This document shows, piece by piece, positions 3,614 to 9,819 of a stretch of DNA of 20,477 bases. The translations under genes were made by a program, and so were the position numbers. The notes below the pieces were generated by a model, which searched no databases, was not told where the DNA came from, and saw nothing but the letters and a program-made list of their open reading frames with translations. The DNA comes from a virus, in IMG/VR virus record IMGVR_UViG_3300043464_000018, positions 1 through 20,477 of that record; one strand, given 5' to 3'. The stretch's first letter is position 1; the number at the start of each line of letters is the position of its first letter.

Positions 3614-4528
3614 ATGGCTATTTCTCGTGCACAACTACTAAAAGAGTTGCTCCCCGGCCTCAATGCCTTGTTCGGTTTAGAGTACAAGCGTTACGGCGAA
3701 GAGCACAAAGAGATCTACGAAACTGAGAAATCAGAGCGTAGCTTCGAAGAAGAAACCAAGTTGTCTGGCTTCAGTGCCGCTCCCGTCAAGAACGAGGGCA
3801 GCGCAATTGCTTATGACAATGCGCAAGAAGCTTTCACAGCGCGCTATAACCATGAAACCATCGCTTTAGGTTTCTCGATCACCGAAGAGGCGATTGAAGA
3901 TAACTTGTATGACAGCCTTTCTGGTCGTTATACCAAAGCATTGGCTCGTGCCATGGCTTATACCAAGCAAGTTAAAGCTGCTTCTGTATTGAACAACGGC
4001 TTTACCAACTCCAGCCAGTATTACGGCGGCGACGGTGTACCTCTGTTTTCTACTCAGCATCCTTTGGTTTCTGGTGGTGTTAACAGCAACCGTCCTACCA
4101 CTGGCGCTGACTTGAATGAAACTTCGTTGGAAAACGCAGTTATTCAGATTAGCTTGTGGACAGACGAGCGCGGATTGCTCATCGCAGCAATGCCCCGTAA
4201 GCTGATTATTCCTCCACAACTTCAGTTCGTTGCAACCCGTTTACTTGAGACTAACCTTCGTGTTGGTACCAACGACAACGACATCAACGCATTGAAGAAC
4301 AATGGCTCAATCCCAGAAGGTTACGCAATTAACCACTATCTGACTGATCCAAATGCATGGTTCTTGACCACCGACGTTCCTAACGGCATGAAGCATTTTG
4401 AGCGTATGCCTTTAAGCAACTCGATGGATGGTGATTTCGACACCGGTAACGTACGTTATAAGGCTCGTGAGCGTTATTCGTTCGGCTGGTCCGATCCTCT
4501 CGGTATGTTCGGTTCACCCGGAGCTTAA
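3614..4528 (+). CDS. Major capsid protein (HK97 fold)
   Basis: A 304-residue protein that would form the icosahedral shell. The N-terminal region contains KELLPGLNALFGLEYKRYGEEHKEIYE and a charged KSERSFEEETKLSGF segment that would correspond to the extended E-loop. The middle contains NHETIALGFSITEEAIEDN and LARAMAYTKQVKAASVLNNGF, a spine-helix pattern I associate with the Mu gpT-like and related major head subunits. FSTQHPLVSGGVNSNRP and a C-terminal ARERYSFGWSDPLGMFGSPGA complete the family pattern. The length suits a capsid without a delta domain, consistent with the separate scaffold gene. The start is supported by AAGGAG at 3600-3605. An intrinsic terminator lies only nine bases after the stop, so this is the end of the head transcription unit. 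Confidence 0.88.
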   Translation: MAISRAQLLKELLPGLNALFGLEYKRYGEEHKEIYETEKSERSFEEETKLSGFSAAPVKNEGSAIAYDNAQEAFTARYNHETIALGFSITEEAIEDNLYDSLSGRYTKALARAMAYTKQVKAASVLNNGFTNSSQYYGGDGVPLFSTQHPLVSGGVNSNRPTTGADLNETSLENAVIQISLWTDERGLLIAAMPRKLIIPPQLQFVATRLLETNLRVGTNDNDINALKNNGSIPEGYAINHYLTDPNAWFLTTDVPNGMKHFERMPLSNSMDGDFDTGNVRYKARERYSFGWSDPLGMFGSPGA

Positions 4529-4536
4529 GTTGTACA

Positions 4537-4558
4537 GGGGGCCATGTGCCCCCTTTTT
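4537..4558 (+). terminator. Intrinsic terminator after the capsid gene
   Basis: GGGGGC at 4537-4542 pairs perfectly with GCCCCC at 4548-4553 around a five-base loop, followed by five T at 4554-4558. It begins nine bases after the capsid stop and is the only clear Rho-independent terminator in the window. It would end or reduce transcription between the head genes and the downstream structural genes. Confidence 0.88.
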
Positions 4559-4654
4559 GTTGGGCTGGTTAAGCAGACGTAAAAGGATGTAGTAAGCGGT
4601 GTATTTTTCTGCTTTCATAACCGCGTGAAGTAACTACCAAATTTTCAGCCCAAC
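4559..4654 (+). ncRNA. Candidate structured RNA with predicted pseudoknot
   Basis: By eye this stretch contains four mutually compatible helices. P1: GTTGGGCTG at 4559-4567 pairs with CAGCCCAAC at 4646-4654 (nine Watson-Crick pairs). P2: GTAGT 4589-4593 pairs with ACTAC 4633-4637. P3: GCGGT 4596-4600 pairs with ACCGC 4620-4624. A seven-base match joins AAGCAGA 4571-4577 to TCTGCTT 4608-4614, which sits in the P3 loop, giving a pseudoknot. No open frame with a ribosome site covers it. It could be a small RNA, a processed 3' end of the capsid message, or part of the leader of the gene at 4774. I cannot match it to a named RNA family, and the fold has not been computed or tested by covariation. 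Confidence 0.45.
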
Positions 4655-4681
4655 GCTTGCTTTTTATGTTATATGGAGTAA

Positions 4682-4746
4682 GATTCGTTTATCTGGGTGA
4701 ATCGCTTATCAAACCGCCCCAGCGGACGCATACACGATTGATAGGC
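4682..4746 (+). promoter_or_regulatory. Candidate folded 5' leader of the gene at 4774
   Basis: GATTC at 4682-4686 pairs with GAATC at 4699-4703. Directly adjacent, GCTTATCAA at 4704-4712 pairs with TTGATAGGC at 4738-4746 (nine pairs, one G-U), enclosing a small hairpin CCGC 4714-4717 with GCGG 4722-4725. The fold ends about 14 bases before the AAGGA ribosome site at 4760-4764. It may influence stability or translation of the downstream gene. Nothing identifies a ligand or a protein partner. Confidence 0.35.
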
Positions 4747-4773
4747 TGAACTTTGTATGAAGGACAATTTATT

Positions 4774-5280
4774 ATGGCATTAGCAACTACCTCAGCCGTA
4801 TGGCGCTCCACTGGTGGAGATCAAACACGTACAGCATATGCTGGCTCCATGGTTATGGCAGCACAGTTTTACATCGCAAACACCGCAGCAACTTCAAACG
4901 TAGTAACTTCTTCAGCTACTGGCGCTCCAGCGTTGATTCTGCCTGCTGGCGCAGTTGTTACCGAAGTTATTGTTTCTAGTGGTGGCGGCGGTAATGCCAC
5001 TGCTAACGTAGGGTTTACCCCATTAATTGGTGTTGGTCCAGCACAAACTCCTACTCTTGGTACAAACGTACCAGCCGCTTTTGTTTCTGCTGGTAACGTT
5101 TCTGCACGTACAGTATTTACTGTTGGTGGTACAGGCGGAGGAGATTCTTTGGGTAACGTAGCTAACGCAACTAACTTAGTTGTTGTAACTAATACCCAAG
5201 GCGCTGCTAACGCTATTGCTGGTGTTGTTTCTGGCGACATAATCTATTACGTAGCTGATACTGGCGCAGAAAACGTCTAA
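4774..5280 (+). CDS. Putative virion structural protein
   Basis: A 168-residue protein of low charge, rich in Ala, Thr, Val and Gly. I use the ATG at 4774 because AAGGA at 4760-4764 is nine bases upstream; an in-frame TTG at 4753 has no such site and lies next to the folded leader. The sequence starts MALATTSAVWRSTGGDQ and later has PAGAVVTEVIVSSGGGGNATAN and, near the end, TNLVVVTNTQGAANA and SGDIIYYVADTGAENV, a pattern consistent with a beta-sandwich capsid or tail surface protein. It is the first gene after the capsid terminator and is followed 11 bases later by two paralogous structural genes. Composition resembles the decoration candidate at 2975. Specific function unknown; a secreted or enzymatic role is not supported. 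Confidence 0.62.
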   Translation: MALATTSAVWRSTGGDQTRTAYAGSMVMAAQFYIANTAATSNVVTSSATGAPALILPAGAVVTEVIVSSGGGGNATANVGFTPLIGVGPAQTPTLGTNVPAAFVSAGNVSARTVFTVGGTGGGDSLGNVANATNLVVVTNTQGAANAIAGVVSGDIIYYVADTGAENV

Positions 5281-5789: not shown

Positions 5790-6281
5790 ATGATGCAATA
5801 TGACGTCAAATCCGCCCGTGCCGCAGGTACGGGATTGCTTGTAACGCAAATTCCTGTAAGGTTAAAGTCTATTACGGTAACTAGCGGAACTTCATCTTCA
5901 AGACAGACCGCTATATGTGACCCTAGCGTTCAAGAGTCTGGTACATACTCCCGTACTAGCCCTAGCGCTACCATTACTGTGACTATTGTTAACCATGGTT
6001 TTGTTACTGGGCAGCGGGTATTTTTAGACTTTACGTCTGGTACTGGACGTGATGGCGTATATGAAGTTACAGTAACAGGTGATAACACTTTTACTTGTGC
6101 AGACGCTCCAACCACAACAACAAGCGGAAATGTCACAGCATATAGCAGTATTGCTTTAGAAATTGATACATTTAGTACAGTTGGACTACCTATTTTGATT
6201 CCAGGCGAAGGCATTTATTGCCCGAATGGTATTTTTGTGGGTTGTGGCTCTTCTGTGACTGCGACGGTGTTCTATGGCTAA
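5790..6281 (+). CDS. Putative virion protein with FCCH-like insertion (paralogue 2)
   Basis: A 163-residue paralogue of the preceding gene. Shared landmarks are QYDVKSA versus QYDVKSY at the N-terminus, RLKSITVTSGTS versus RLKGIVISPSTS, TVTIVNHGFVTGQRVFLDF versus TVTIANHGLSDGDIVGLNF, and (L/I)IPGEGI with TVFYG at the C-terminus. Overall identity is moderate and the DNA has diverged, so the duplication is old or the genes were acquired separately. Two ATG codons occur in succession at 5790 and 5793; the upstream site is a weak GGAATAGG. The end overlaps the next gene by eight bases. Function is presumed structural, possibly giving two alternative surface proteins at equivalent positions. Confidence 0.65.
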   Translation: MMQYDVKSARAAGTGLLVTQIPVRLKSITVTSGTSSSRQTAICDPSVQESGTYSRTSPSATITVTIVNHGFVTGQRVFLDFTSGTGRDGVYEVTVTGDNTFTCADAPTTTTSGNVTAYSSIALEIDTFSTVGLPILIPGEGIYCPNGIFVGCGSSVTATVFYG

Positions 6282-6594
6282 GTCTCCTGCATGGACTCGC
6301 AAAGAAGGCAAGAACCCCGAAGGCGGTCTAAACGCCAAGGGCAGGGCTTCCTACAATGCTGCTAACCCTGGCAAACCAGGCCTGAAAAGGCCTCAGCCAG
6401 AAGGCGGCGCTCGCCGGGATTCGTTCTGCGCCCGCATGAAGGGTATGAAAAAGAAGTTAACTTCAGCCAAAACCGCCAATGATCCGAACTCACGGATTAA
6501 TAAGTCTTTACGGGCTTGGAACTGCAAAGAAGGCGGTTCTGTCCGTGGTGGAGGCTGCGAAGTTAGGGGTAAGACGAAAGGCAGGATAATTTAA
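6274..6594 (+). CDS. Small basic phage protein (DUF6321-like) with C-terminal tag
   Basis: A 106-residue, strongly basic protein. Its core shows a pattern widespread in phages and other viruses: SPAWTRKEGKNPEGGLNAKG at residues 4-23, then DSFCARMKGMKKKLTSAKTA and DPNSRINKSLRAWNC. I recall the N-terminal motif under the name DUF6321, from memory only. As I remember relatives, the core normally ends at the WNC; here about 22 residues follow, containing EGGSVRGGGCEVRGKTKGRI, a member of the tag family shared with downstream genes. The start lies eight bases inside the preceding structural gene and the stop overlaps the next start (TAATG). Basic charge suggests nucleic-acid contact, perhaps inside the capsid, but function is unknown. 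Confidence 0.75.
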   Translation: MAKSPAWTRKEGKNPEGGLNAKGRASYNAANPGKPGLKRPQPEGGARRDSFCARMKGMKKKLTSAKTANDPNSRINKSLRAWNCKEGGSVRGGGCEVRGKTKGRII

Positions 6595-6941
6595 TGTTAG
6601 GTTTAGCCGCTCGTATGGCAGCAAAAATGGCTGCTAAAAAAATGGGTAAACAGGCTGCAAAAGAAGCAGACGAAATACCTCGCTATACGCAGTCTAAAAG
6701 CTTTAAAGCCCTTGAGAAAGCGCAAAAAAACAGTGGTCCGGAAGCCGTCATTAGAGACATGGAAAAAGCCGGGGCTGTTGCTTTAGGTTCAGGTTTTGCT
6801 GGCGCCGCAGGTAAATCATCTTTGGAAGATAAAGAGGCAGAAAGCGAAAGTAGCTACAAACGTGGCGGTAAAGTATCCTCCGCTTCCAAACGTGCCGATG
6901 GGTGCGCTATTAAAGGCAAGACTAAAGGTCGGATGGTATGA
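6594..6941 (+). CDS. Small basic protein with RADGC tag (copy A)
   Basis: A 115-residue protein starting at a TAATG junction, therefore likely made by translational coupling. The first 20 residues (LGLAARMAAKMAAKKMGKQ) form a basic amphipathic helix with Ala/Met faces. The middle contains a helical, charged stretch and a short Gly/Ala-rich part (ALGSGFAGAAGKSS). The C-terminus carries the tag SKRADGCAIKGKTKGRM preceded by YKRGGKVSSA. Over twenty residues the tag is identical to that of the gene at 7372, although 11 of those codons differ. The body is not recognisable to me. The 72-codon frame at 6796-7014 is a shadow of this gene and the next. Confidence 0.68.
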   Translation: MLGLAARMAAKMAAKKMGKQAAKEADEIPRYTQSKSFKALEKAQKNSGPEAVIRDMEKAGAVALGSGFAGAAGKSSLEDKEAESESSYKRGGKVSSASKRADGCAIKGKTKGRMV

Positions 6942-7189
6942 GCGACAGTATTTATTTATGGTTTTGGAACCTAGGACTATCTATCGTTATGGGCATCGTA
7001 GGATTTTGGGCTAAGGAAAAAGCTGCTGAACTTCAGCGCATTAGCATTTTGGTAAACAAAACTCGTGAGGAGGTGGCACGTGATAACGTCACTCAAGCAG
7101 AAATTGACAAAGTTATGGAGCACATTGATGCAAGGTTTAACAAGCTTGAAGGCAAAATTGATTTACTTATTCAGAAAGGTCTAGCATGA
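6938..7189 (+). CDS. Small membrane-anchored coiled-coil protein
   Basis: An 83-residue protein with one N-terminal membrane helix (about residues 5-24, IYLWFWNLGLSIVMGIVGFW) followed by a charged helix (KEKAAELQRISILVNKTREE) and a C-terminal coiled coil (EIDKVMEHIDARFNKLEGK). This layout of one membrane segment plus coiled coil recurs in short phage proteins; some are placed near lysis genes. No holin, endolysin or spanin gene is nearby, no lipobox or second membrane span is seen, and it sits among virion-type genes, so I do not call it a holin. It overlaps the preceding stop by four bases (ATGA) and the following start by four. It is the only acidic-to-neutral member of the small-gene run. 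Confidence 0.65.
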   Translation: MSDSIYLWFWNLGLSIVMGIVGFWAKEKAAELQRISILVNKTREEVARDNVTQAEIDKVMEHIDARFNKLEGKIDLLIQKGLA

Positions 7190-7371
7190 AACATTCAGAT
7201 ATGAGCAAAGACATGCCAATGATGAAAAAAGTAGCTTCGGCTGCTGTCAAAGGGCATGAAAAGAAAATGCACAAAATGGCTAAGGGCGGTGTAACCCGTG
7301 CCGATGGTTGCGTAATGAAAGGCCACACCAAAGGCAAAATGGTCAAAATGATGGGTGGCGGAAGCTGCTAA
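7186..7371 (+). CDS. Small Met/His/Lys-rich protein with RADGC tag
   Basis: A 61-residue basic protein with 11 methionines. The N-terminal half is a Lys/His/Met-rich helix (KKVASAAVKGHEKKMHKMAK); the C-terminal half contains GGVTRADGCVMKGHTKGKM, a variant of the tag in which Lys-Thr-Lys is replaced by His-Thr-Lys, followed by an extra KMMGGGSC. The start overlaps the previous gene by four bases and its stop is directly followed by the next ATG (TAAATG). Only the tag and a general likeness to short Lys/His-rich phage proteins can be recognised. The Met/His/Cys content could bind metal, but there is no ordered metal motif. Confidence 0.62.
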   Translation: MKHSDMSKDMPMMKKVASAAVKGHEKKMHKMAKGGVTRADGCVMKGHTKGKMVKMMGGGSC

Positions 7372-7680
7372 ATGGACGAATACACCGCCGACCCTTTTCA
7401 GACTGAGCGCGAAGCCTTCCGTGTTTTACGGAAGATGAACGCTGAAAAAGTCCAAGACGCAGAAGCTAAGCAAAAGGCGGCTGATGCCCGCAATTTAGCT
7501 AAGCGTTTTGTAACTGAAGGTAAAAGCGTATTTGGGAGCGGTGCTGGTGATTTGGAAAAAGGCATGATGGGCGGGCGTATGAAGAAGCCAACTTATAGAA
7601 AAGGCGGCACCGTGTCATCAGCCTCAAAGCGTGCAGATGGTTGCGCCATTAAAGGCAAGACGAAAGGCAGAATGATATGA
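7372..7680 (+). CDS. Small protein with RADGC tag (copy B)
   Basis: A 102-residue protein. Residues 8-50 form a charged helix (TEREAFRVLRKMNAEKVQD and AEAKQKAADARNLAKRFVT), followed by a Gly-rich linker (FGSGAGDLEKGMMGGRMKKP) and the tag SKRADGCAIKGKTKGRM at the very C-terminus. Body and tag are separated by the linker, suggesting that the tag is an independent module added to an unrelated body; the body is not similar to the other tagged protein at 6594. Coupling to neighbours is tight: ATG directly after the previous stop and ATGA overlap with the next gene. Function unknown; a virion-associated role is inferred from the neighbourhood. Confidence 0.66.
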   Translation: MDEYTADPFQTEREAFRVLRKMNAEKVQDAEAKQKAADARNLAKRFVTEGKSVFGSGAGDLEKGMMGGRMKKPTYRKGGTVSSASKRADGCAIKGKTKGRMI

Positions 7681-9606: not shown

Positions 9607-9819
9607 ATGTTTAAAAAAGGCGCTGACGGTGTAACTAAGCAGGGCAAAACCAAAGGTAAAAACCTTGGTGATTCTGGCCCATCTGTAGGTATTCAGCATG
9701 GCGGTAAAGGCAAAGGAGCCAAAACCGTTACTAACGAAAGCTTGAAAGCTATGGGTCGCAATATGGCTCGTGTAGCTAATCAAGGAATGATGCGCAAGAG
9801 CGCAGGAAGAGGACGTTAA
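9607..9819 (+). CDS. Small basic protein with N-terminal ADG motif
   Basis: A 70-residue protein with very high Lys/Gly content and no hydrophobic core. At the N-terminus, FKKGADGVTKQGKTKGKNLG is clearly related to the C-terminal tags of the upstream small proteins (ADGC-x-x-KGKTKG), so here the motif is at the opposite end. The rest is a Gly-rich linker (GIQHGGKGKGAK) and a short basic helix (LKAMGRNMARVANQGMMRK) with an Arg-rich end. TAGGAG nine bases upstream supports the ATG. It is probably disordered alone; binding to DNA or to a virion partner is an inference. Confidence 0.62.
   Translation: MFKKGADGVTKQGKTKGKNLGDSGPSVGIQHGGKGKGAKTVTNESLKAMGRNMARVANQGMMRKSAGRGR

Follow-up and report, generated by a model that had tools for sequence, protein, structure and literature searches.

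A conserved kissing-hairpin RNA ahead of a probable capsid decoration gene in freshwater and marine phages

The 20,477-nt stretch of viral DNA analyzed here (positions 1 to 20,477 of IMG/VR record IMGVR_UViG_3300043464_000018, hereafter the window) almost certainly contains a hitherto undescribed conserved folded RNA at positions 4693–4764. A first-pass annotation of the window had proposed a novel RNA with a pseudoknot immediately behind the capsid gene; it recognized the right kind of element but placed it at 4559–4654, a segment that ends about 40 nt before the conserved element begins. Because of the spacing of the preceding promoter and the position of the Shine-Dalgarno sequence, the conserved element very probably represents the complete 5' leader of the mRNA of the downstream decoration (cement) gene. 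The features of the region are listed in Table 1.

Table 1. Features of the region between the capsid gene and the decoration-type gene of the window
Feature	Position	Strand	Details and evidence
Major capsid protein gene	3614..4528	+	304 aa, Mu gpT-like, upstream of leader; PHROG 371 major head protein, E=1e-22
Capsid-gene intrinsic terminator	4536..4558	+	hairpin AGGGGGC..GCCCCCT and T run
Segment of the first-pass annotation	4559..4654	+	9-bp terminal inverted repeat, two nested helices, pseudoknot; pairs verified
Segment, outer helix	4559..4567 with 4646..4654	+	9 bp
Segment, nested helix	4589..4593 with 4633..4637	+	5 bp
Segment, nested helix	4596..4600 with 4620..4624	+	5 bp
Segment, pseudoknot helix	4571..4577 with 4608..4614	+	7 bp
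Putative sigma70-type promoter	4657..4684	+	TTGCTT-16-TAAGAT, weak (7 of 12); predicted start about 4691-4693
P1 5' strand	4693..4697	+	CTGGG; pairs with 4718-4722
P2 5' strand	4704..4711	+	GCTTATCA, kissing loop-loop helix; two-sided changes at all 8 P2 pairs
Mini-hairpin 5' strand	4714..4716	+	CCG, conserved A before; comparative alignment
P1 3' strand	4718..4722	+	CCCAG, within mini-hairpin loop; 5-bp upstream partner in 28/28 distinct loops (15-20% in controls)
Mini-hairpin 3' strand	4723..4725	+	CGG; conserved AC follows in 96% of 165 elements
P3 5' strand	4729..4734	+	CATACA; partner of at least 5 bp for 45/45 distinct strands (20-35% in controls)
P2 3' strand	4739..4746	+	TGATAGGC, conserved GA before; comparative alignment
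P3 3' strand	4754..4759	+	TGTATG, abuts Shine-Dalgarno; held-out pairing and Shine-Dalgarno position
Shine-Dalgarno	4760..4764	+	AAGGA, directly after P3
Decoration/cement-type gene	4774..5280	+	168 aa, ATG at 4774; position behind leader

Structure, covariation and distribution of the conserved element

The strands of the element follow one another in the order P1 5', P2 5', a mini-hairpin enclosing P1 3', P3 5', P2 3' and P3 3', after which comes the Shine-Dalgarno sequence. This A B A' C B' C' (ABACBC) arrangement corresponds to two hairpins (with P1 and P3 as their stems) joined by P2, a kissing interaction between the loops. The loop-loop helix comprises 8 bp in the window, including one G.U pair, and 7–12 bp across the family. 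The element has the makeup of a kissing-hairpin RNA, with this strand order, two hairpins and paired loops, and all three helices covary. Energy folding restricted to nested pairs gives an unremarkable z = -0.23 for the element, as expected for a fold that is a pseudoknot, and lends no support either; the conserved knot is missed by this kind of folding.

In the first covariation test P1, P2 and the mini-hairpin were scored on a MAFFT alignment of 39 sequences that was not fitted to the structure. Paired cells made up 96.6%, and the covariation score was 0.605, as compared with 0.221 for shuffled alignments and at most 0.133 when the partners were slid by 1–3 columns. All eight pairs of P2 displayed two-sided changes. 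Further copies were gathered and aligned with a covariance model fitted to P2 and the mini-hairpin only, with P1 and P3 held out; the held-out helices were 98.9% paired and carried 31 two-sided changes vs 2.2 in shuffled sequences, counts that are not phylogenetic probabilities. The IMG/VR copies are redundant. Among non-redundant freshwater and marine copies, a P1 partner of at least 5 bp was found for 28 of 28 distinct loops (20% with swapped and 15% with shuffled sequences), and a P3 partner of the same minimal length for 45 of 45 distinct strands (35% and 20%, respectively). The marine members of these two sets were chosen by a descriptor that contains P1 and P3 and are therefore not independent for these helices; tests on almost only model-found copies agree with this result. 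Wobble cells comprised 25 G.U and 1 A.C, which identifies the plus strand as the RNA.

Some subgroups (for example those of loci L024, L007 and L046, with P1 of the type CCGGG.., CCAGG.. or CTGGGAAACCAG..) have a 5' strand of P1 that can form a hairpin with the linker following it. Hairpins of at least 4 bp between this strand and the P1-P2 linker occur in 22% of the elements vs 6% of shuffled ones. In some subgroups this hairpin is possibly a folding intermediate or a switch; as a general switch it was rejected, being enriched in some subgroups and missing from most. Loci L075 (2565-2654) and L424 (just upstream of 3001) carry a longer mini-hairpin loop and P1 of TAGGGT/ACCCTA, with the topology kept.

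The element is present in hundreds of related phage contigs from freshwater and the ocean. The covariance model matches the window and 72 of its 80 closest capsid-gene relatives, and a descriptor adds two more (L034 and L073), bringing the number to 74; the contigs of the remaining six break off in the gap itself or shortly past an inserted open reading frame (ORF). Among the matches listed for a pattern of the element sequence, drawn with the capsid gene disregarded, the model recognizes 75 of 80 contigs. One further IMG/VR pattern scan, with a wrong spacing, returned mostly irrelevant contigs and one true match (L107). A set of 20 longer records yielded 18 clear matches (one record with two copies), one fragment at a contig end and one record without the element, where the contig stops. 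Five viral contigs binned in bacterial MAGs also contain the element.

The covariance model likewise detects the element in the cultured Pelagibacter phage HTVC023P and in phage DSL-LC04. It gave no match in the other INPHARED relatives examined, namely Pag-Yong1, 023Pt_psg01, HTVC027P, CRP-902, QDWS535, Caulobacter RW and three Manatee Spring phages. By eye, HTVC027P and 023Pt_psg01 have looser versions, and according to the topology descriptor close IMG/VR relatives of HTVC027P have clear copies. This descriptor matches 52 of 143 marine relatives of HTVC023P/HTVC027P and none of the shuffled sequences. The marine copies are built of different helices, for example CTATAC/GTATAG, CCTAG/CTAGG and a mini-hairpin of CGA/TCG.

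Genomic setting and proposed function of the leader

The capsid gene is located upstream of the leader in 131 of 134 distinct cases; for the remaining three, the available upstream sequence amounts to 0, 1 and 874 nt. The distance between them exceeds 250 nt in 38 loci, usually through an intervening ORF, and the leader stays with the downstream gene. The extra ORFs in this position (for example in L006, L016, L020, L023 and L035) include several that resemble, by eye, homing endonucleases of the HNH or GIY-YIG type.

A sigma70-like promoter scoring at least 8 of 12 is found at fixed spacing in 88% of 163 distinct upstream regions, vs 27% of shuffled ones, and the end of its -10 element lies mostly 7–9 nt ahead of P1; the promoter of the window itself is weak. 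Given this fixed spacing, transcripts should begin at P1. Loci L012, L013 and L030 have no visible promoter, and their leaders would be reached by read-through. In several loci (L015, L036, L044, L049, L053, L058, L062, L067 and others) the -35 hexamer, TTGTGC or TTGCGC, is located inside the capsid terminator hairpin, so that the terminator and promoter overlap. At the other end, 66 of 130 distinct leaders have a Shine-Dalgarno sequence beginning immediately behind P3, and in 39 more it begins within the 3' strand of P3, so that P3 is flush with it or overlaps it in 105 of the 130. The element lies between the predicted transcription start and the start codon of a single gene and travels with that gene, as a cis-acting mRNA leader does, its 5' end being set from the promoter position. 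No conserved anti-Shine-Dalgarno strand was noticed in it, and an on/off switch is therefore not indicated.

The gene behind the leader has no PHROG match of its own. Its product is probably a decoration protein, as judged from its position and from the annotation of the gene at the same place in related phages, a cement protein in DSL-LC04 and a minor capsid protein in Pag-Yong1 (in which no element was detected). The proteins encoded downstream of the leaders have common short N-terminal signatures, MARSTFEGPILS, MALSTTQSIWRS and MGFATHLGPWLL, and differing bodies. In the related Pam1 capsid, an N-terminal loop of the cement protein grips the capsid protein (PMC9698820), and the conserved N-termini would fit a similar grip. 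The record of L035 (G006) contains two copies of the leader, at 322-402 and 64009-64092 (loci L484/L485). Each copy is part of a series consisting of an HNH-like ORF, a promoter, the kissing-loop leader and a decoration-type gene, and the two decoration genes differ. This duplication suggests exchangeable cassettes, and the combination of promoter, knot and variable decoration gene looks mobile.

Farther downstream in the window, the ORFs at 6274-6594, 6594-6941, 7186-7371, 7372-7680 and 9607-9819 contain or end with a lysine-rich motif similar to RADGCA.KGKTKGRM, the remainder of these small proteins being dissimilar.

Taken as a whole, the element is best explained, with moderate confidence, as a conserved cis-acting 5' leader that gates the translation, and probably also the stability, of the decoration-protein mRNA. 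Gating of translation as such, proposed from the position of the fold, is rated slightly above an even chance. Transcription would start at or just before P1 from the promoter located between the capsid terminator and the leader. The RNA, as the covariation shows, folds into the P1 and P3 hairpins, their loops kissing by P2 and a 3-bp mini-helix bracketing the 3' strand of P1. Judging by position, the 5' end would be buried in P1 and the ribosome site would lie at the edge of P3. Lying against the ribosome-binding site, this compact structure, which the 30S subunit would have to open or accommodate, could set translation initiation, and it would probably also shield the 5' end of the message. 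The output of decoration protein would in this way be set independently of the capsid gene, the transcript of which terminates just upstream.

A possible, though rather unlikely, alternative is that the leader is mainly a stabilizer, the 5' terminus held in the P1 knot slowing 5'-end-dependent decay so that the message accumulates while its translation is unregulated. The promoter-P1 distance, which sets the start at P1 in most relatives, is compatible with this role, and a mechanical function rather than a ligand pocket is suggested by helix sequences that vary freely with the shape kept and few unpaired bases conserved. Decoration proteins can also be required in bulk, 540 copies being present in GP4 (PMC9698820). 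Stabilization leaves unexplained, however, the position of P3 at or over the Shine-Dalgarno sequence in most leaders, as well as the leaders lacking an evident promoter.

It is improbable that the element is a riboswitch or a protein operator, in which a ligand (a metabolite, the capsid protein or the decoration protein) stabilizes the knot and represses translation. A compact pseudoknot beside the Shine-Dalgarno sequence does recall translational riboswitches and the T4 gene 32 operator (PMC3014915), and unpaired bases are conserved ahead of the mini-hairpin (A), behind it (AC) and ahead of the 3' strand of P2 (GA). Such invariant bases are, however, few, no Rfam riboswitch matches, and the downstream genes are structural, with bodies differing between phages, which speaks against autoregulation through a single conserved protein. 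A DNA-level site, such as a target of the HNH- or GIY-YIG-like endonucleases encoded between the capsid gene and the leader in some relatives, can practically be dismissed, since the helix sequences change with pairing kept and the wobbles are G.U rather than A.C, indicating selection on the RNA pairing of one strand and not on a recognized DNA sequence.

Returning to the gating leader, there is about an even chance that it represents a new and widespread class of phage 5' leaders: a kissing-hairpin knot of about 70 nt, extending exactly from the transcription start to the Shine-Dalgarno sequence and retained in its shape, not its sequence, by freshwater and marine short-tailed phages, which would move with capsid-decoration genes as an exchangeable cassette and tune decoration output apart from that of the capsid.

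The segment at 4559–4654

The four helices that the first-pass annotation had described in this segment are exact Watson-Crick matches. For positions 4553-4660 the optimum for this topology is the very same arrangement, with 26 bp. As many pairs are attained in 1 of 3000 dinucleotide shuffles and in none of the 1008 other segments of 108 nt taken from the window; the topology was picked after viewing the sequence, so the true significance is weaker than 1/3000. The 9-bp stem by itself is present in 84 of 3000 shuffles. Nested-only folding of 4520-4780 is unremarkable (z = -1.54).

Comparison with relatives gives a different picture. Among the matches listed in IMG/VR pattern scans, copies of the 96-nt segment occur in three records of one same virus and are 100% identical. 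Neither the 80 closest relatives by capsid gene nor the 77 others collected as closest by decoration gene contain the segment. Searches for diverged copies by two exact IMG/VR patterns and by blastn against the fetched relatives and INPHARED provided only identical copies or chance matches, among the matches listed; a 17-mer match in L125 looks like unrelated sequence. The sister genome L407 has a near-identical capsid 3' end, leader and start of the decoration gene and lacks the segment, its terminator passing straight into the promoter region, as in an empty site. Since only identical copies were found among the matches listed and L407 has this empty site, the segment is identified as an insertion specific to the strain, which carries a 9-bp terminal inverted repeat and lies behind the capsid terminator and ahead of the next promoter. 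Homologous gaps that lose the pairings were named by the first-pass annotation as a refutation, and this holds for its coordinates, near-identically flanked relatives such as L407 being devoid of the segment altogether.

The structure may form in this single virus, and the rarity of its pseudoknotted arrangement in shuffles speaks for it. That the segment is a functional structured RNA, either a small RNA or a message 3' end, is nevertheless very improbable in view of its absence from L407 and other relatives, its location past the terminator and ahead of the promoter, and the post hoc choice of topology. The regulatory leader, also considered by the first-pass annotation, is the best reading for 4693–4764 rather than for the inserted segment. 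A descriptor parse at 4552-4624 (score 20.0) could make the segment a decayed duplicate of the conserved element; it was rejected, as it lacks the conserved A, AC and GA and borrows bases of the terminator.

Comparison with known RNAs

The opinion of the first-pass annotation that no named RNA family fits was borne out by Rfam 15: none of its 4227 families reached the gathering cutoff in the window or in 20 relatives, and the best sub-threshold match in the window was Atu_At1 (23.7 bits vs a cutoff of 60). Permissive scans of the window, L003 and L257 revealed no credible plus-strand match to the element, all hits being sub-threshold and mostly on the terminator. No earlier description of the element was found in the open-access literature searched. 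The strand orders of the HDV-like and pistol self-cleaving ribozymes do not correspond to that of the element.

Structured leaders controlling translation are well known in bacteria. For phages, essentially one pseudoknot case is known according to a review (PMC3014915). An undescribed leader whose shape is conserved among freshwater phages as well as among relatives of Pelagibacter phages in culture is of interest in this respect, and its location on a virion-assembly gene raises a testable question, namely how a phage sets the dose of decoration protein relative to the capsid protein.

Like the T4 gene 32 leader, the element places a pseudoknot upstream of the start codon within the 5' leader of a phage message, its 5' end here being deduced from the promoter position. 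The T4 gene 32 leader comprises a simple two-stem pseudoknot 67 nt upstream, with an unstructured A+U-rich stretch, before the gene of an ssDNA-binding protein. The element described here differs in having three interlocked helices and a mini-hairpin, in extending up to the Shine-Dalgarno sequence and in preceding decoration genes of differing sequence. Control of an ssDNA-binding protein gene through binding of its product, typical of gene 32, does not apply, the downstream genes being of the decoration type of capsid genes.

The SAM-II and preQ1-II translational riboswitches are compact pseudoknots with the last strand at the Shine-Dalgarno sequence. The element shares this placement and differs from them in the absence of a match to an Rfam model, in its few invariant unpaired bases, in the structural rather than metabolic nature of the downstream genes and in its ABACBC order. 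The manA and wcaG motifs are conserved cis-acting RNAs revealed in aquatic phage sequences by comparative analysis and located before metabolic or photosynthetic genes of T4-like cyanophages (PMC2864571). Unlike these, the element matches no Rfam model and is located before a gene for virion decoration, in short-tailed phages of the HTVC023P/Pam1-like type.

Overall, the element belongs to a known kind of RNA, the pseudoknotted leaders represented by T4 gene 32 and the translational riboswitches. Its novel features, with no match in Rfam or the open-access literature searched, are the family itself, the kissing-hairpin order, the extent from the transcription start to the Shine-Dalgarno sequence and the tie to decoration genes.
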